A program made the position numbers and the translations under genes. A stretch of 42,593 nucleotides of DNA, taken from assembly GCA_946185535.1 (NCBI GenBank), contig CAMHJX010000025.1, positions 1-42,593 of the forward strand. The letters run 5' to 3'. The notes beneath the pieces are model-generated. The model was not told the DNA's origin. It made no database searches and saw only the letters and a list, made by a program, of their open reading frames with translations. This document shows positions 28,419 to 33,634 of this stretch, piece by piece. Positions within the stretch are counted from its first letter, which is position 1; each line of letters opens with the position of its first letter. The DNA comes from an uncultured Bacteroidales bacterium. GTDB lineage: Bacteria > Bacteroidota > Bacteroidia > Bacteroidales > F082.

Positions 28419-28916
28419 CTATTTCCACCATCCTTCCAGCTTCAGCAACGCGATTTTGTTGTGCAAACCACCGCCATAGCCCGTGAGTTTGCCATTAGCA
28501 CCCATCACGCGATGGCAGGGCACGATGAGGCAAATGGGGTTCCAACCCACTGCGCCACCTACCGCCTGCGCAGAATTGATTTTCAACCGTTTTGCGATTT
28601 CTCCATAAGTTAGTGTATGCCCAAATGGTATCTCGCACACGATATCCAACACTACCTTGCGGAATGGTGTCAAGTCTTCCATGCGGTAAGCTGGTGTGAA
28701 ATCTGGCTGATGGCCAGTGAAATAGAAGTCCAACCAACGATAGGTATCATGAATTACGGGCGGTAGAGACGAGCCATGGCGCGTCTCTACAACGCCCAAT
28801 GGATGTTTGTTTTCGTCACGCGAACCTGCAAACCATAAGCCTGTCAGCGCCTTGCCATCGGTGCTCATCAGCAGATCATCAAAACCTTCTGGTGTCGGAT
28901 AAAGGTATGTAGCCAT
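28419..28916 (-). CDS. ogt: methylated-DNA--[protein]-cysteine S-methyltransferase
   Basis: 165 residues. Suicide repair enzyme that transfers the alkyl group from O6-alkylguanine (and O4-alkylthymine) in DNA to its own cysteine. The active-site motif PCHRVMG has Cys134. The helix-turn-helix region (PFGHTLTYGEIAKRL) and YGGGLHNKIALLKLEG are typical. ATG 28916 is preferred over the TTG at 28922, 2 nt after the GNAT stop. It is the last gene of a seven-gene leftward run. A 28-bp palindrome of intergenic type lies in frame and encodes VETRHGSSLP, in the variable loop of the N-terminal domain. A role in alkylation repair would fit an operon dealing with DNA damage. Confidence 0.9.
   Translation of the reverse strand: MATYLYPTPEGFDDLLMSTDGKALTGLWFAGSRDENKHPLGVVETRHGSSLPPVIHDTYRWLDFYFTGHQPDFTPAYRMEDLTPFRKVVLDIVCEIPFGHTLTYGEIAKRLKINSAQAVGGAVGWNPICLIVPCHRVMGANGKLTGYGGGLHNKIALLKLEGWWK
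28757..28797. repeat. TAGAGACG...CGTCTCTAC palindrome inside ogt
   Basis: 28763-28790 is a 28-bp palindrome with one mismatched pair around CCATGG, extended by outer GGGCG/CGCCC arms. It is of the same type as 14315-14342 and encodes part of the Ogt N-terminal domain in frame. Confidence 0.7.
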
Positions 28917-28918
28917 AT

Positions 28919-29404
28919 TCAATCCTCCAAAGCGAATTTTCGCAAAGCCGTTTCATCCAAGCGCTGGACGGTCCATTCATCCATGGGCATAGCACCGATG
29001 CTGCGGTAAACCGTCAGGGCTGGTTTGTTCCAATCGAGGCAGATCCACTCCATGCGGCCGCAGTTACGCTCCACAGCAATCTTTGCCAAATATTTCAACA
29101 AGGCCTTACCATAGCCACGACCGCGTTTCTCGGGAAGGATGAACAGGTCTTCGAGATACAGGCCCTTGCGCCCAACAAAAGTGGAGAAATTGTGGAAAAA
29201 CAAAGCGAATCCGATGACCGCGCCGCCTTCCTCGGCAAAGACCACCTCGGCGGAATGTTCCACAAAAAGGGAATGATAGATGGTGGCCTCGTCGGCCACG
29301 ACTTCATCGGTGCATTTCTCGTAAACGGCGAGTTTCTTGATGAATTCAAGGACGAGGCCTGCCTCTTCGGGCTTCGCAGGACGGATAGTGAATTGATTGT
29401 TCAT
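28919..29404 (-). CDS. GNAT-family N-acetyltransferase (diamine acetyltransferase-like)
   Basis: 161 residues. Transfers acetyl from acetyl-CoA to an amine. Motif A is present as LEDLFILPEKRGRGYGKALL, with the RGRGYG pyrophosphate loop at about 98-103. The layout IRPAKPEEAGLVLEFIKKLAVYEK at the N-terminus and WNKPALTVYRSIGA at the C-terminus resembles the spermidine/spermine acetyltransferase branch. Substrate is not certain. It overlaps the operon: 30 nt after the HEAT-like gene and 2 nt before ogt. Confidence 0.83.
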   Translation of the reverse strand: MNNQFTIRPAKPEEAGLVLEFIKKLAVYEKCTDEVVADEATIYHSLFVEHSAEVVFAEEGGAVIGFALFFHNFSTFVGRKGLYLEDLFILPEKRGRGYGKALLKYLAKIAVERNCGRMEWICLDWNKPALTVYRSIGAMPMDEWTVQRLDETALRKFALED

Positions 29405-29434
29405 GGTTTGACTATTTCTGAAAGTGCAAAGATA

Positions 29435-29929
29435 TCATTTTTCCAGCATCTTTCCCCTAATATGTTTCAACGCGGCTGGCAGCACCTCGGGTTCCATCAT
29501 CCGGAGTGCCGTGTTGAACTCTTCGATCAGTTCAGGGTAGAATTTGCTTTGCGCATAAGTGAGCTTGATGGCCAATGACTTCACGCCGATGGGTTCGTCG
29601 GAGAGCATGGAGTTGAAGCAGAAATCGAGGAAGTCGGTGCGGATGCTGTCGGCCTCAAAGGGTGTTCTATCTAATAGGTTCATGATAAGTCGACGCTTGG
29701 TGGTGCTGGTGGTGCGCATGGCCTCATCAATAAGGATGTTCTGCCTTTCGGCCAACCAGGCATCTGCGGTCTTGGGCAGGTGCGTCAACACCCAAGCGGC
29801 ATTGTCGGAAGTACGCTTGTCTTCATCGAAGAGCAACTGAAACAGTTCCTCCTTGAAGTCGCCACCAGCCAAGGATCGGGCGTCGCCTCCGCTGATTCTG
29901 CCTGATAATATGGTTTTCAGCTCCGACAT
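29435..29929 (-). CDS. HEAT-repeat-like protein
   Basis: 164 residues, almost entirely helical: FKEELFQLLFDEDKRTSDNAAWVL, RQNILIDEAMRTTSTTKRRLIMNLL, VKSLAIKLTYAQSKFYPELIEEF. Paired helices with conserved N and P positions suggest ARM/HEAT repeats, hence protein or nucleic-acid binding. DNA glycosylases of the AlkD type also have HEAT repeats, but the known AlkD catalytic residues are not evident and the protein is short, so this is only a thought. It starts 3 nt after the PhzF stop. Confidence 0.65.
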   Translation of the reverse strand: MSELKTILSGRISGGDARSLAGGDFKEELFQLLFDEDKRTSDNAAWVLTHLPKTADAWLAERQNILIDEAMRTTSTTKRRLIMNLLDRTPFEADSIRTDFLDFCFNSMLSDEPIGVKSLAIKLTYAQSKFYPELIEEFNTALRMMEPEVLPAALKHIRGKMLEK

Positions 29930-29932
29930 AGG

Positions 29933-30769
29933 CTAAACACACAATTCTCCTTTCGCGACAATCGCTGCCGTGCCGCCCACATAGATGGTCCCATCTTTGT
30001 CGATACGCGTTGCAACAACGGAAGGCCGACCCATGGCCTCGCCTTGCATGAAGGCGCATTCCGCTTCGGCACCGAGGCAGCCGTTATGTTGCAGATAGAA
30101 GGTCAATGCCGCATTGGCGGTACCAGTGGCCGATTCCTCGGGCACGCCGTACAAAGGCCCGAAGTCGCGGACATGGGCTGTGTAGCTGTCGTTGGCGAAG
30201 GCAAAGACATGGAAACTTACTGCATCATATTTCTTGGTGATGGCCGTGATGGCCTCCATGTTGGGATTCAAGGCCTGCAAGGTGTCCACATCAGGCAAGG
30301 GAATCATCAAATCGGGAAGGCCCGAGTAGGCTATTTGTATAGGCATAATGGGATGATAATCATTGACACCCAATGCCTTATAGATTTCTTCCGTCTCATT
30401 GACAGTAGCCACAATACGCGGCATAGCCATCTGCATCATCACCCTTTCTCCGGCTTCGACAGACAAGTCACCTGCAAGCGTGTGGCAAAGACATTGACCC
30501 GACGCCAACCCTTCATGGTGCAACAAATAGAATGATGCTATGGTAGCATGGCCACACAGATCCACTTCGGCTTTGGGCGTGAAATACCGGATAGTAAACT
30601 CCTTATCTGAGTGCCGTCTGATGAAGGCCGTCTCCGAATAGCGTAACTCCGCGGCGATTTGAAGCATCAGTCTTTCTTCGGGGAACTGCTCCGATTCGAG
30701 CAGCACCACACCTGCGGGATTGCCGCCGAAGGGTTGATTGGTGAAGGCATCGAGGATATAGTATGTCAT
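29933..30769 (-). CDS. PhzF-family isomerase
   Basis: 278 residues. PhzF/diaminopimelate-epimerase fold enzyme; the substrate in this lineage is unknown. Signature elements are FTNQPFGGNPAGV (residues 9-21), SETAFI with the catalytic Glu, EVDLCGHATIAS and EESATGTANAAL. ATG 30769 (MTYYILDAF) fits the family N-terminus. An upstream in-frame ATG at 30805 would overlap the preceding gene by 11 bp and is possible but less likely. It lies within the seven-gene run, 25 nt after the dual-OB-like gene. Sequence from here leftward is more GC-rich than the three genes before it. Confidence 0.85.
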   Translation of the reverse strand: MTYYILDAFTNQPFGGNPAGVVLLESEQFPEERLMLQIAAELRYSETAFIRRHSDKEFTIRYFTPKAEVDLCGHATIASFYLLHHEGLASGQCLCHTLAGDLSVEAGERVMMQMAMPRIVATVNETEEIYKALGVNDYHPIMPIQIAYSGLPDLMIPLPDVDTLQALNPNMEAITAITKKYDAVSFHVFAFANDSYTAHVRDFGPLYGVPEESATGTANAALTFYLQHNGCLGAEAECAFMQGEAMGRPSVVATRIDKDGTIYVGGTAAIVAKGELCV

Positions 30770-30794
30770 TGTTTCAGTTTTATTCTTTTTTGTA

Positions 30795-32045
30795 CTAAGA
30801 CTCATCTGTTTTGTTTTGCCTAACCACTATTGAAGCTTCCTTTTGCACTGGTTTGCAATAGTTTTCACACAATTCTTGATTCTCCTCACGGAACAGTTTA
30901 CTGTCGAAAATGGTGCAATAGCTTCTGTATAGTTCTTCGTTTTTTTCTCGAAGAAGGTCGCTATCAAATTTCAAAACAGTTTTTGGAGGAGAATAACTAA
31001 TGGTGAACCTTGTCGTTTTTATCTTCTCTTCATCATGGATTTCCATTTGTTGAAGCAGTTCTTTCCGCAATGCGCCAATTTGGCTCTCTGTCTCTTTCTT
31101 GAGGTCAATCAAACGGGCCAATTCTTGATCATAATAATCAAACCAATTACCTGATGAATCTTCGACAAGTAGTTTTTTCAACCGAGCACGGATAGATCCT
31201 TCATTCCGCTGAAATCGAGTCATGATTTCATTAAGCGAAGCACCCTGTCTATGCATCTCCATCAATAAACTATCATCCTCTTGACTCCATTTAGCATAGG
31301 CATTTGGATGAAGTTGTTTCTGCCGATCTATATATGAAAGCTCCTTGTCAGGAGAAGAAATATCTTTCTTTTCCAATTCTATTTTTGGAGGCAAGAACAC
31401 CCCTGCAACCAGTTTGAAATGAAAACCTTCGAATTCCAACCCCAATGAGAGTGTAAGGTAAACTCCTTTTAAGTCCGTGTATCTTTCCGGATTCTTCTTA
31501 AAAGCATCCAAAAAATAAGGATCCGTAATAGGGAAGTCATAGTTGGAGCCATAATAAGTAAACTTCATCCGATATTTAGACTTTTCCCTTTCTTCGTCAA
31601 TATAGGCACTAGCTATTTCAGGGCGTATGAGCATCAACGAATAGTTGAGCCGGTCTATCATCTTTGCTGGGATGGCTTTCCCTCGAAAATAGAATACCGC
31701 TTGGTGAACAGGGTCAATGAGTTGGCTCATGAAATCGTCTTTGAACTCATTGTCATTGGGACAGCATTCCATGCGCGAACAATGCACATCCTCAGTGTGA
31801 GCCTTATGAGGGCAAGGTGCCACATCAGTTAGTCTTACCAAAGAAAGCAATTTGACATCTTGCGCCAATTGCATTGGGATTTCTCCGTTTTCTGCCATCG
31901 AAACCGGGCGAATCCAACAAGGGCGACCGTCATCATGGCGAACAATATCCATACGGCCATCTTGACTTGGCGAGACCTCAATGCCAGCAATGCACCGTCC
32001 ACCGTGCTTGTATGAATTAGCCAAACAAATGAAATACTTATCCAT
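30795..32045 (-). CDS. dual-OB-like (DuOB) domain protein with SANT-like helix domain
   Basis: 416 residues, function unknown. The N-terminus (FICLANSYKHGGRCIAGIEV, then CWIRPVS) matches my memory of the dual-OB family, predicted to bind nucleic acid; a Cys/His stretch (PCPHKAHTEDVHC) follows at about 77-89. Residues about 252-297 (KWSQEDDSLLMEMHRQG, IMTRFQRNEGSIRARLKKL) form a SANT/Myb-like three-helix unit with a conserved Trp. A coiled coil follows (about 310-340), then a polar tail. ATG 32045 is chosen over the TTG at 32054, which overlaps the upstream stop. It is 5 nt after a DUF488 gene and AT-rich. Family naming is from memory; a nucleic-acid sensor or effector role is inference. Confidence 0.6.
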   Translation of the reverse strand: MDKYFICLANSYKHGGRCIAGIEVSPSQDGRMDIVRHDDGRPCWIRPVSMAENGEIPMQLAQDVKLLSLVRLTDVAPCPHKAHTEDVHCSRMECCPNDNEFKDDFMSQLIDPVHQAVFYFRGKAIPAKMIDRLNYSLMLIRPEIASAYIDEEREKSKYRMKFTYYGSNYDFPITDPYFLDAFKKNPERYTDLKGVYLTLSLGLEFEGFHFKLVAGVFLPPKIELEKKDISSPDKELSYIDRQKQLHPNAYAKWSQEDDSLLMEMHRQGASLNEIMTRFQRNEGSIRARLKKLLVEDSSGNWFDYYDQELARLIDLKKETESQIGALRKELLQQMEIHDEEKIKTTRFTISYSPPKTVLKFDSDLLREKNEELYRSYCTIFDSKLFREENQELCENYCKPVQKEASIVVRQNKTDES

Positions 32046-32050
32046 AATGG

Positions 32051-32494
32051 TCAAATGAGGTGAACAATCGTGACCTTTTCTTTACTGTGCGCTTGCAAAT
32101 ATTCGGCCAATAGCCTGCGGTGGCATTGTTCGGGTGTGTCTTCGCTACATAGGAAGCACGAGCCATCAAAAGCCTTTACACCGTATTTACGAATGACATC
32201 TCTGGTTTTCAGCAAGTTCACATAGATTTCTACATATTCTTCCCAGGTTACTTCCTCTTTGTGCCACTTGTCGAGTAATTCTTTTGTCGGTGCAAAATCA
32301 TCAACATGCTGATAGGGAATATGGCAAATCTCGTTGACGAAAAACTCCAAGTCTTTTCCTTTGGCAAAACCAGCCAATTGGCTGCTATTGCTGATCCGTA
32401 CATCAACTAACTGCTTTACATGGTTGTCGCGCAGCAAATTAAAGAAATGTTCGGCACTTTTTTTCGTAAAGCCGATGGTAAAAAGAGTAATCAT
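32051..32494 (-). CDS. DUF488 family protein (short)
   Basis: 147 residues, the second DUF488 of the operon. Family hallmarks are FTIGFTKKSAEHFFNLL (IGHS-type start), LVDVRISNSS (D31, R33) and CSEDTPEQCHRRLLAEYL with C116 and C124-H125-R126. Biochemical function of DUF488 is not established; the conserved Cys/His/Arg set suggests catalysis or metal binding. It starts 3 nt after the first DUF488 stop and ends 5 nt before the dual-OB-like gene, so translation is likely coupled. Confidence 0.8.
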   Translation of the reverse strand: MITLFTIGFTKKSAEHFFNLLRDNHVKQLVDVRISNSSQLAGFAKGKDLEFFVNEICHIPYQHVDDFAPTKELLDKWHKEEVTWEEYVEIYVNLLKTRDVIRKYGVKAFDGSCFLCSEDTPEQCHRRLLAEYLQAHSKEKVTIVHLI

Positions 32495-32497
32495 ACG

Positions 32498-33130
32498 TTA
32501 ATAAATTTCTTCGTTCTGCAATTCGGGCTTGTATCCTATTTCCTTGTTTTTCAGTCGATAGGCATCTCTTCGCTGTTCTTCTTCAGTATACAATCCAAAC
32601 AAGTAATCCACTTCTGAAAGATGGTATTTGCGTGAATGGATGTATGTTGTAATCATCTCTTTTTCCAACTTGGCTTGGGATGCCAATGAAGCGTCTTTCA
32701 GAATATGCTGAACATCGACTCCATTGTCATAAAAAAAGCGAGAAACAAGTGAAAAACGATGGCATTCTAAAGGATCGGCCTCAGAGCACATGAAAGCAAT
32801 TCGGAAGCCTTTTTCCAAGCCCTTCATAACACGCTCAACACCTTTCTTGAAAAGGGGAGTCTCAACTGCTTTTTCAAAATCGACTTGTTCATTCTCATCC
32901 AAGCAATCCGTTCGTCTTGCGCCAAACTCGTCGCCAAAATGCAAGTACTGAATGTTGTGAGCCTTCAAATAGCATTTCAAACCATCTTGGTTGAATTGTG
33001 GAGAGTACTTACTCGCAGGAATGCTTCTGACATCAATCACACAATTGATGCTATGTACATTCAGTAGTCCAATAAACTCCTCTAAGGATTGGTTGGAATG
33101 TCCTATACTATATAACCTGTAATTCTCCAT
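32498..33130 (-). CDS. DUF488 family protein (long)
   Basis: 210 residues. The first gene of the operon. It contains LYSIGHSNQSLEEFIGLL, CVIDVRSIPASKYSPQFN (D33, R35), FGARRTD and FMCSEADPLECHRFSLV (C115, C123-H124-R125), all typical of DUF488. After about 145 a helical, charged tail is added that the short paralogue lacks. The two paralogues are clearly distinct, not a recent duplication. ATG 33130 follows a TATTTTTG box. Base composition is more AT-rich than in PhzF to ogt downstream. Confidence 0.82.
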   Translation of the reverse strand: MENYRLYSIGHSNQSLEEFIGLLNVHSINCVIDVRSIPASKYSPQFNQDGLKCYLKAHNIQYLHFGDEFGARRTDCLDENEQVDFEKAVETPLFKKGVERVMKGLEKGFRIAFMCSEADPLECHRFSLVSRFFYDNGVDVQHILKDASLASQAKLEKEMITTYIHSRKYHLSEVDYLFGLYTEEEQRRDAYRLKNKEIGYKPELQNEEIY

Positions 33131-33155
33131 TCAATACTATTCAATTGTCTGGCTG

Positions 33156-33163
33156 CAAAAATA
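33156..33163 (-). promoter_or_regulatory. -7 box of the DUF488/dual-OB operon
   Basis: TATTTTTG on the minus strand, 25 nt before ATG 33130. No other clear promoter is seen down to ogt. Confidence 0.6.
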
Positions 33164-33190
33164 GAAAAACATTTCCATTATCGCAATAGC

Positions 33191-33634
33191 TTATAATATC
33201 TGTGCCGTATGGTTCTTGGTATCCACCTTGCCAATAGCATCGATAATAACTCCCTCTTCATCAATGACATAGGTTGTACGCAGCGTGCCTTCGGTCACCT
33301 TGCCGTACATCTTCTTCTCACCCCATGCCTCGTAGGCTTTCAGGATAGTCAAATCAGTGTCGGCGATGAGATGGAAAGGCAGGTTATATTTGGCGATAAA
33401 GTTCTGATGCGACTTGGCACTATCGCGACTGACGCCTAACACATTATAGCCCAACGACAGGAAGCGCTCGTAGTTGTCGCGCAGATCGCAGGCCTCGGCG
33501 GTGCAGCCTGGCGTGCTGTCTTTGGGATAGAAATAGAGCACCAGTTTCTTTCCTACAAAATCCGTCAATTTGATGAGATTGCCGTTTTCATCTTGCCCTT
33601 CAAAATAAGGGGCTTTTGTTCCTTTTTGTAACAT
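33191..33634 (-). CDS. bcp: thiol peroxidase (peroxiredoxin, BCP type)
   Basis: 147 residues. Reduces peroxides with thioredoxin as donor. Peroxidatic Cys44 and resolving Cys49 lie in PKDSTPGCTAEAC, the BCP/PrxQ signature; LVLYFYPKD, VLGVSRDSAKSHQNFIAKY and RTTYVIDEEGVI are also typical. Full length for the family. Single gene; a TAACTTTG box lies about 25 nt upstream. Separated from the DUF488 operon by its promoter, so it is probably independent. Confidence 0.92.
   Translation of the reverse strand: MLQKGTKAPYFEGQDENGNLIKLTDFVGKKLVLYFYPKDSTPGCTAEACDLRDNYERFLSLGYNVLGVSRDSAKSHQNFIAKYNLPFHLIADTDLTILKAYEAWGEKKMYGKVTEGTLRTTYVIDEEGVIIDAIGKVDTKNHTAQIL

Follow-up and report, generated by a model that had tools for sequence, protein, structure and literature searches.

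A PDC-M45-type cassette of two DUF488 proteins and a DuOB protein, inserted into a resident gene row of a Bacteroidales bacterium

Genes at the locus

The DNA analyzed here (the window, a stretch of 42,593 nucleotides from contig CAMHJX010000025.1 of an uncultured Bacteroidales bacterium) carries seven leftward open reading frames between positions 28419 and 33130. The gaps between them are 3, 5, 25, 3, 30, and 2 nt, in agreement with the 2–30 nt given in a preliminary description of the sequence. The features are as follows:

33191..33634, minus strand: prxQ-type peroxiredoxin, resident left flank; AhpC-TSA 1.9e-39
33156..33163, minus strand: TATTTTTG, candidate Bacteroidetes -7 box, a TAnnTTTG match upstream of LONG
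32498..33130, minus strand: LONG (DUF488-long, PDC-M45B); PF04343 1.9e-20; PDC-M45B 2.2e-53; C-x7-CHR; model pLDDT 93.9
32051..32494, minus strand: SHORT (DUF488-short, PDC-M45C); PF04343 1.8e-21; DUF488-N3a 3.8e-09; PDC-M45C 2.4e-57; C-x7-CHR
30795..32045, minus strand: DuOB protein (PDC-M45A); PF22557 4.5e-36; Sipho_Gp157 1.9e-07 at residues 307–368; PDC-M45A 5.9e-30; model pLDDT 90.5
29933..30769, minus strand: phzF-family isomerase, resident right flank; PF02567 2.7e-64
29435..29929, minus strand: 164-aa protein, resident, without family match
28919..29404, minus strand: GNAT acetyltransferase, resident; PF00583 4e-18
28419..28916, minus strand: Ogt/MGMT alkylguanine transferase, resident; PF01035 8.5e-29 (MGMT DNA-binding domain); PCHRV in the translation
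30770..33185, minus strand: inserted cassette, 2416 bp, absent from five relatives

The DuOB start is the ATG at 32045 (the TTG of the open reading frame list lies upstream of it), and the ATG chosen for PhzF agrees with its relatives. The Pfam matches bear out the earlier naming of PhzF, GNAT, and Ogt; the last of these has both the MGMT DNA-binding domain and the PCHR active site that define its family. The 164-aa protein had been called HEAT-like, a name that found no backing, with no Pfam or NCBIfam match at E<=1 and nothing convincing among PDB sequences. A divergent HEAT fold in this protein is still conceivable. The first three genes are more AT-rich than the last four, as had been noticed: the GC contents of LONG, SHORT, and DuOB are 0.398, 0.419, and 0.413, compared to 0.506–0.527 for the last four genes, and prxQ has 0.473.

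An insert in a resident gene block

The seven genes had been placed behind a single promoter. This is not borne out: prxQ, read in the same direction, lies 60 nt upstream of LONG, and in five relatives without the insert (L068–L072) it is separated from phzF by only 3 nt. The resident row includes prxQ because of this spacing. Similarity to the empty sites stops after the prxQ TAA plus GCTAT and restarts at the phzF ATG, and the row prxQ-phzF-164-aa gene-GNAT-ogt is split by a 2.4-kb insert carrying LONG-SHORT-DuOB. At the empty sites the 164-aa gene follows phzF, although in L069 it lies behind another insert and in L071 it is a shorter open reading frame. A phzF homologue is found at E<=1e-60 in 42 of 60 genomes of the genus. 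In the related genome G031 the triplet lies at a helicase locus, and the same locus is empty in the window's genome, forming a reciprocal empty site.

The genes from phzF to ogt form a resident block that is also present where the triplet is missing. Among 145 loci (L088–L232), a PhzF homologue occurs only in six loci at the prxQ/phzF site, and a homologue of the 164-aa protein or of GNAT only in four of these six. One second-type LONG is shared at 99.7% identity by two genomes that have 69.6% identity in phzF. The row is two joined things, a transferable three-gene cassette and ordinary housekeeping genes, and ogt is most likely a mere neighbor, since the cassette landed between housekeeping genes. 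The same most likely applies to phzF, the 164-aa gene, and GNAT, which look like chance neighbors. Recognizing them as bystanders avoids naming a false seven-gene system. The genes from phzF to ogt may still be co-transcribed with the cassette, and a sequence scan found no terminator-like site between DuOB and phzF.

The candidate box at 33156–33163 matches TAnnTTTG, the Bacteroidetes -7 consensus, and is compatible with a transcription start just before LONG. Of 79 loci, 42 have a TAnnTTTG in the 90 nt preceding LONG, compared to 65 of 1580 random windows; these counts stem from related loci and have no proper significance.

The three proteins

DUF488 proteins are widespread, and their biochemistry is not settled; among the papers listed for the family, one (PMC11687729) has a CRISPR-Cas system in its title. 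Both DUF488 proteins of the window exceed the PF04343 gathering cut-off of 22.2 bits, with scores of 74.2 and 77.4. SHORT also exceeds the cut-off of 27 for DUF488-N3a (PF22751) with 37.3 bits, whereas LONG scores 14. The C-x7-CHR motif, previously noted for this family, is present in both proteins and is kept in 79/79 LONG and 63/64 SHORT relatives; the single exception is a short open reading frame of 117 aa. The arrangement C-x-E-x5-CH might bind a metal. The model of LONG weakly resembles cysteine phosphatases, which are its top structural neighbors in the PDB and more than half of the named BFVD rows. The scores are weak, with no Foldseek match at E<=1e-3, and tetrapyrrole methylases score equally.

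The DuOB protein scores 125.3 bits against its family (PF22557, gathering cut-off 27). Its model, which lacks Met1, has two OB-like barrels (approximately residues 1–220), a helix-turn-helix-like segment (approximately 254–295), a long helix, and a small alpha/beta tail. The protein had been described as dual-OB/SANT-like. The dual-OB part is upheld by the profile. For the SANT-like part, the Myb_DNA-bind_6 match is under the family cut-off (E 0.013), but the model shows a confident three-helix segment at approximately residues 254–295. The structural matches of DuOB are mostly DNA-binding OB proteins, namely LEF-3, HIN-200, RPA, and BrxL. A sequence search of solved structures gave nothing convincing for LONG, SHORT, DuOB, or the DuOB tail.

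Recurrence and mobile contexts

The conserved triplet sought by the preliminary description is found. Among the best 80 of 109 genome loci, some of them related (e.g., L133 and L134), 61 are ordered LONG>SHORT>DuOB, another 3 carry an additional DuOB, 15 read LONG>DuOB without SHORT, and 1 has DuOB alone. In 15 genomes, all 17 relative loci have two DUF488 genes beside DuOB, in the order LONG-SHORT-DuOB, though DuOB comes after a gap of 0.55–1 kb in L022 and L024, and LONG is broken in L031. The triplet is patchy, being present in 16 of 100 relative genomes. DUF488 occurs in 16/16 DuOB-positive genomes versus 12/84 DuOB-negative ones (Fisher p 2.3e-11, for relatives that are not independent).

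The triplet is also found on plasmids, on prophage-type viral contigs, in E. coli integrative islands, and inside two BREX operons (L198 and L200), where it sits between pglX and pglZ. Phage records gave no match to SHORT, DuOB, or the L176 cassette. Of the 36 partnered loci on plasmid and viral contigs, 22 have a DUF4326 protein where LONG would otherwise stand and 12 have LONG; none has both. Four pairs of these 36 loci have identical SHORT ends (L176/L177, L184/L186, L189/L190, and L192/L194), so the counts become 20 and 11 without duplicates. An mSLOG part is recognizable in 21 of the 22 DUF4326 proteins, and the one mSLOG-DUF4326 protein tested had no PADLOC model match at E<=0.1. In the E. 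coli islands, as on a 4.2-kb plasmid, the cassette is compact, at approximately 2 kb.

A PADLOC test of 100 neighbors of 54 triplet loci (of the 80) matched PDC-S07 in 5 members; among the first 25 of 56 families, eight other system names came up, each with a single member per family. PDC-S07 is presumably the Nudix protein, judging from the equal counts (5 and 5). In the control, three PDC names were found among 98 phzF neighbors from 17 of 20 control loci. The result is only suggestive because the genome mix differs between the sets, as does the sampling of neighbors (the nearest gene on each side of the triplet versus three on each side in the control).

What the cassette may do

On the evidence of sequence comparison, LONG-SHORT-DuOB is a horizontally moving PDC-M45-type cassette inserted between prxQ and phzF. 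The earlier proposal of an anti-element module is supported for these three genes, given their PDC-M45 matches, the conserved triplet, and the mobile and BREX carriage; its extension to phzF, the 164-aa gene, GNAT, and ogt finds no support at this site. The cassette would defend against phages or other incoming DNA. DuOB would be the DNA-recognizing part, its tandem OB extended by the helix-turn-helix-like segment and the Gp157-like tail, while LONG and SHORT would be non-identical Cys/His enzymes, both apparently active. DuOB could position them on foreign or abnormal DNA, or such DNA could switch them on via DuOB, and they would then hydrolyze a phosphoryl or base-linked group of DNA or nucleotides. 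A cysteine-phosphatase-like reaction is weakly favored, and the chemistry is the step likeliest to be wrong. Taken whole, a mobile anti-element cassette in which a DNA-binding DuOB directs paired Cys/His enzymes is, in our judgment, slightly better than an even bet.

A broader proposal, which we hold only tentatively, is a modular immune system. Its core would be a tandem-OB DNA reader, usually with SHORT; LONG or mSLOG-DUF4326 would be the exchangeable partner; and the optional motor or DNA-binding tail would be a Pif1 helicase fusion or the helix-turn-helix plus Gp157-like tail. If true, DUF488/DUF4326 would be an enzyme class new to immunity, acting on DNA or nucleotides. With its DUF488 pair and tandem OB, the mSLOG-DUF4326 swap, the Pif1 fusions, and the compact versions, this is a small, directly testable system, which could reveal the activity of DUF488 enzymes and whether PDC-M45 truly defends.

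Alternative explanations

An unlikely alternative is a module for DNA repair or damage tolerance. DuOB would load on damaged or single-stranded DNA, the DUF488 pair would process modified bases or blocked ends together with Pif1-type helicases, and mobile carriage would be incidental. A Pif1-type helicase is fused to DuOB in 5 of the 80 loci (L125, L153, L156, L160, and L167), and a separate gene for one lies beside the triplet in 9 more, to which one weak match (L138) can be added. Nudix is upstream of LONG in 7 loci, UDG is nearby in 4, and Ogt is nearby in 4 outside the window site; the 20 phzF control loci have no Nudix, UDG, or Pif1, and the resident Ogt in 7. The co-occurrence of triplet and ogt raised in the preliminary description is most likely a matter of residence at the window site, but Ogt-domain homologues are found near the triplet in four other genome loci, so that there is a repair link in another lineage, independent of the window row. 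Two of these are strong, each behind UDG: L153 (UDG-Ogt-LONG-SHORT-DuOB::Pif1), with Ogt directly upstream of LONG, and L147, with Ogt approximately 0.6 kb upstream. The other two (L130 and L137) are weak. However, the partners are lineage-specific, the counts come from related loci and have no proper significance, and the helicase adjoining the triplet in the window's genus is also present without it. The patchiness (16/100), the plasmid, prophage-type, and BREX carriage, and the near-identical LONG in two otherwise well-diverged genomes would be unusual for housekeeping repair.

Quite improbable is a module for nucleotide or ADP-ribose processing, possibly in the counter-defense of mobile elements, in which mSLOG-DUF4326 and DUF488 strip phosphates or bases from signal nucleotides. 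It would account for the replacement of LONG by DUF4326 proteins and for the Nudix neighbors. PMC9503650 places DUF4326 in the rhodanese-phosphatase superfamily and proposes the ribose-linked phosphates of ADP-ribose as its target. Yet the partner seen most often is a tandem OB of the DNA-binding type, and chromosomal copies with LONG are common. Homology between DUF4326 and DUF488 was not established by profile comparison: SHORT reached a probability of 21.7%, with an alignment of just 18 columns around the P-x-x-CH motif, and LONG 0.3%, compared to 0.1% for the unrelated DuOB and 98.3% for the positive control LONG-SHORT.

A maintenance (addiction) module of plasmids or islands is less probable again. 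Besides DuOB-SHORT-mSLOG/DUF4326, the 4.2-kb plasmid L168 has just two annotated open reading frames, both hypothetical, and SHORT homologues occur in 127 plasmids. The genes are nevertheless conserved, encode two enzyme-like proteins, and include no obvious antitoxin; chromosomal copies also exist, as in five Dyadobacter genomes at one position. Finally, a single operon of all seven genes for damage response, in which Ogt acts as effector and the 164-aa protein as HEAT scaffold, is hardly credible. On its side are the short gaps, the single direction, and the lack of a terminator-like site after DuOB. Against it, block and cassette each occur without the other and differ in GC, the empty sites and the cassette's other contexts lead us to reject a functional operon, and the scaffold has no profile support.

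Comparison with known systems

Literature searches found no paper for the term PDC-M45 or for DuOB with "OB fold," and a broad search for DuOB, DUF488-N3, and the Pfam accessions had no relevant title among the matches listed. PTP-like cysteine phosphatases carry the P-loop signature C-x5-R. LONG is a weak structural match to them but has C-x7-CHR instead; a motif check found no C-x5-R in LONG, where C115 to R125 is C-x9-R. The tandem-OB DNA binders HIN-200, LEF-3, and RPA may share with DuOB a tandem of two OB-like barrels.

BREX is related by the two operons that house the triplet and by the OB region of BrxL, a weak structural match to DuOB. However, no BREX gene was observed next to the window triplet, and the triplet includes neither PglX nor PglZ. 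The accessible text of a BREX survey (PMC12839542) has no mention of "dual OB." The DuOB-SHORT-mSLOG/DUF4326 cassette, carried by plasmids, prophage-type contigs, and E. coli islands, shares DuOB, SHORT, and the compact layout with the window triplet, and differs in having mSLOG-DUF4326 in place of LONG.

The closest known system is PDC-M45, a PADLOC candidate, by which this type of cassette is already on a list of candidate antiviral systems. The PDC series is attributed to Payne et al. (2024, bioRxiv). The window proteins match its components A, B, and C at 5.9e-30, 2.2e-53, and 2.4e-57, and the genes are adjacent and co-directional as PDC-M45 requires, with gaps of 3 and 5 nt. What sets the window apart is that its DuOB has a helix-turn-helix-like segment and a Gp157-like tail, and that the cassette stands alone in a row of housekeeping genes.

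Genes of the row and the inserted cassette

The seven leftward genes that the preliminary description placed at 28419..33163 are present with the short gaps it stated, encoding two DUF488 proteins, a DuOB (tandem-OB) protein, PhzF, a 164-aa protein, GNAT and Ogt. The first three are indeed more AT-rich (GC 0.398-0.419 vs 0.506-0.527 for the last four). The 164-aa protein had been called HEAT-like, but family profile searches matched it to no family. As an operon the row is ordinary; its interest lies in the cassette, or triplet, formed by the first three genes. Below, L-numbers are loci compared and G-numbers related genomes.

30770-33185, insert of 2416 bp carrying the triplet, from comparison with empty sites L068-L072
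32498-33130, minus strand, long DUF488 protein (LONG)
32051-32494, minus strand, short DUF488 protein (SHORT)
30795-32045, minus strand, DuOB

The window is one entire contig of a 3.67 Mb genome in 86 contigs. At the empty sites of five relatives (L068-L072), prxQ and phzF are 3 nt apart, and the genes for the 164-aa protein, GNAT and Ogt lie downstream of phzF, with other genes interposed in L069 and L072. Homology between these sites and the window ends with the GCTAT that follows the prxQ stop codon and restarts at the phzF ATG, thereby delimiting the insert; judged from this alignment, the triplet is an insertion. The cassette occupies the same site in two of the 15 other DuOB genomes (G002 and G003) among 100 genomes surveyed, and in six of 80 loci of a wider scan (best 80 of 109), two of these apparently being the G002 and G003 contigs. 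The cassette is mobile: in G031 the prxQ-phzF site is empty (L068) and the triplet lies instead behind a Pif1-type helicase (L027), while the window's own genome has the syntenic helicase locus (L236) without a triplet.

Other material has entered this row as well. In relatives, additional ORFs or extra DNA are found at L069:2192-3430, in L072 and L073 between the 164-aa and GNAT genes, and in L073 also between prxQ and phzF; the prxQ-ogt row thus seems to acquire inserts repeatedly.

Conservation of the triplet

The nearest DuOB relatives (93-99% identity) are in Bacteroidales or Bacteroidia assemblies, among them one from goat abomasum and several of the rumen RUG series, which makes a Bacteroidales of the ruminant gut the likely source. 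DuOB is found in 16 of the 100 genomes, the window's included, and DUF488 in 28; a DUF488 pair adjoins DuOB in all 16 (17 loci from 15 genomes, plus the window), in a looser layout at L022 and L024, with a gap of ~0.55-1 kb ahead of DuOB. The cassette in these two is of a second type, whose DuOB is short; close to it are genes that resemble, by eye, those for an ECF sigma factor and for a protease of the caspase kind. LONG is split over two reading frames at L031:6146-6732 (G056; also L097), with SHORT and DuOB open.

The wider scan, with one genome per species, is the neighbourhood survey that had been called for, and it bears out a conserved DUF488-DUF488-DuOB triplet. Among the best 80 of 109 DuOB relatives, 61 loci read LONG-SHORT-DuOB, three have an additional DuOB in front, 15 read LONG-DuOB (no SHORT match at E<=1e-3) and one has DuOB only; the genes are on one strand in all 80. 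The C-x7-CHR motif is present in 79/79 LONG and 63/64 SHORT proteins; the one SHORT that lacks it is an ORF of 117 aa. A TAnnTTTG box, by its consensus a candidate promoter element, stands immediately before LONG in the window and is enriched upstream of LONG in general (42/79 loci, which are related, vs 65/1580 random windows).

A second-type cassette is present in both G002 and G028, with identities of 99.7% for the LONG gene, 89.8% for SHORT and 82.0% for DuOB, against 69.6% for phzF. This pattern points to recent transfer or recombination, with some reserve since both genomes are metagenome-assembled.

Further arrangements were seen around the cassette. A same-strand gene (up to ~365 aa) is close behind DuOB in L143, L150, L151, L152, L154, L159 and L166, starting in L150 with an acyl-carrier-like domain (PF00550, 4.9e-06); L021:1633-2724 holds a gene similar to it by eye. 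In five Dyadobacter loci (L157, L161, L163, L164, L165) the cassette lies among genes that are, by eye, trpC/F/B- and trpA-like.

Plasmids, viral contigs, genomic islands and defense operons

SHORT homologues occur in 127 of 72,556 plasmid records and DuOB in 15. A 4.2-kb Citrobacter plasmid, whose DuOB gene spans the record start, carries DuOB-SHORT followed by mSLOG-DUF4326, a protein found in place of LONG; an Allochromatium plasmid has DuOB-LONG-SHORT adjoining csm6, in a neighborhood that also contains cas1 and type III-B genes; and an Acinetobacter plasmid has SHORT without DuOB, ~4 kb from a GajA match. Viral contigs add 55 loci with SHORT relatives. Together with six plasmid loci, 36 have a partner or DuOB and 25 have SHORT alone (23 as weak matches only). 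The partner in the 36, four pairs of which share identical SHORT ends, is DUF4326 in 22 (mSLOG part recognisable in 21), LONG in 12 and never both; the last two, which are close to contig ends, have just DuOB. All five loci tested (L176, L178, L179, L187, L195) have genes for terminase, portal, head, tail or endolysin no more than ~3 kb from the cassette.

In E. coli, 14 of 5426 genomes have a DUF488-DUF4326 pair of the cassette type. DuOB is present in all four that were read, with a frameshift in one of them; one of the four loci is in a prophage remnant at icd with mcrA and three are in integrase-bearing islands at ffs. The DuOB-SHORT-mSLOG/DUF4326 cassette was seen in L168, L169, L173, L176, L195 and L229-L232, which are plasmids, prophage-type contigs and E. 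coli islands. By eye, an XRE-type regulator and an ImmA/IrrE-protease-like gene stand beside DuOB-LONG-SHORT in L192, L193 and L194, which may point to damage- or induction-linked control.

Two BREX operons (L198:884-11056 and L200:825-11067) hold DuOB-LONG-SHORT between pglX and pglZ-brxL, so these contigs look like host islands, not phage. Restriction genes of type I (L128), type IIG (L148) and type IV (L135) lie near chromosomal triplets.

Defense or repair

The triplet is most likely a mobile anti-element module, with a role in defense. DuOB would read DNA, and LONG and SHORT would act as paired Cys/His enzymes with phosphoryl or base chemistry. That mSLOG-DUF4326 replaces LONG in mobile elements suggests one shared slot for both. 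DUF4326 has been assigned to a rhodanese-phosphatase superfamily, with action on ribose-linked phosphates proposed (PMC9503650). Profile comparison aligned only a short P-x-x-CH segment of DUF4326 and SHORT (21.7% probability), so a common reaction is offered as a hypothesis.

The neighbors of the triplet also raise the possibility of a DNA-repair module. In L125, L153, L156, L160 and L167, DuOB carries a fused Pif1-type helicase (by phmmer; three of five by Pfam, with HRDC in one of the three scanned and HTH_40 in one). Nine further loci have the helicase as its own gene next to the triplet, and one more (L138) gives a weak match. A Nudix gene, probably the PADLOC candidate PDC-S07, is upstream of LONG in L131, L132, L133, L134, L135, L156 and L160, directly except in L156. 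UDG lies near the triplet in four loci, upstream in L147 and L153 and downstream on the opposite strand in L109 and L110. In 20 phzF control loci this search found no Nudix, UDG or Pif1, and Ogt, the resident gene, in seven. The triplet loci are related, however, the control set has fewer loci, all of one genus, and in the window's genus the helicase also occurs without a triplet, so the repair neighbors are a lead that keeps repair in play as the rival reading.

The proposed link with ogt is not supported at the window's site, though a few other loci have such a gene nearby. Ogt-domain homologues lie near 4 of 74 other genome loci, with strong matches in L147 and L153 and weak ones in L130 and L137; no PhzF, 164-aa or GNAT homologue lies near a triplet outside the six same-site loci. 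L153:3765-9132 reads UDG-Ogt-LONG-SHORT-DuOB::Pif1, with Ogt directly before LONG, and L147:3022-9246 has UDG and Ogt ~0.6 kb upstream of LONG and Pif1 behind DuOB; in both, the triplet-ogt neighborhood is independent of the window's row. The three E. coli loci at ffs also have an Ogt homologue there, which belongs to the resident chromosome.

Comparison with catalogued systems

For the anti-element module, the literature searched, mostly by title, yielded no description of the mSLOG-DUF4326 exchange or the Pif1-DuOB fusions, nor was the term PDC-M45 found there. A single mSLOG-DUF4326 protein was compared with the PADLOC models and hit none of them. Payne et al. (2024, bioRxiv) is cited in two papers, one giving it as the PDC reference; PDC abundance in rumen genomes is treated there. 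The window's own proteins match the PADLOC models PDC-M45A (DuOB, 5.9e-30), PDC-M45B (LONG, 2.2e-53) and PDC-M45C (SHORT, 2.4e-57), and by these profile matches the first three genes of the row are a further member of the already catalogued candidate system PDC-M45.
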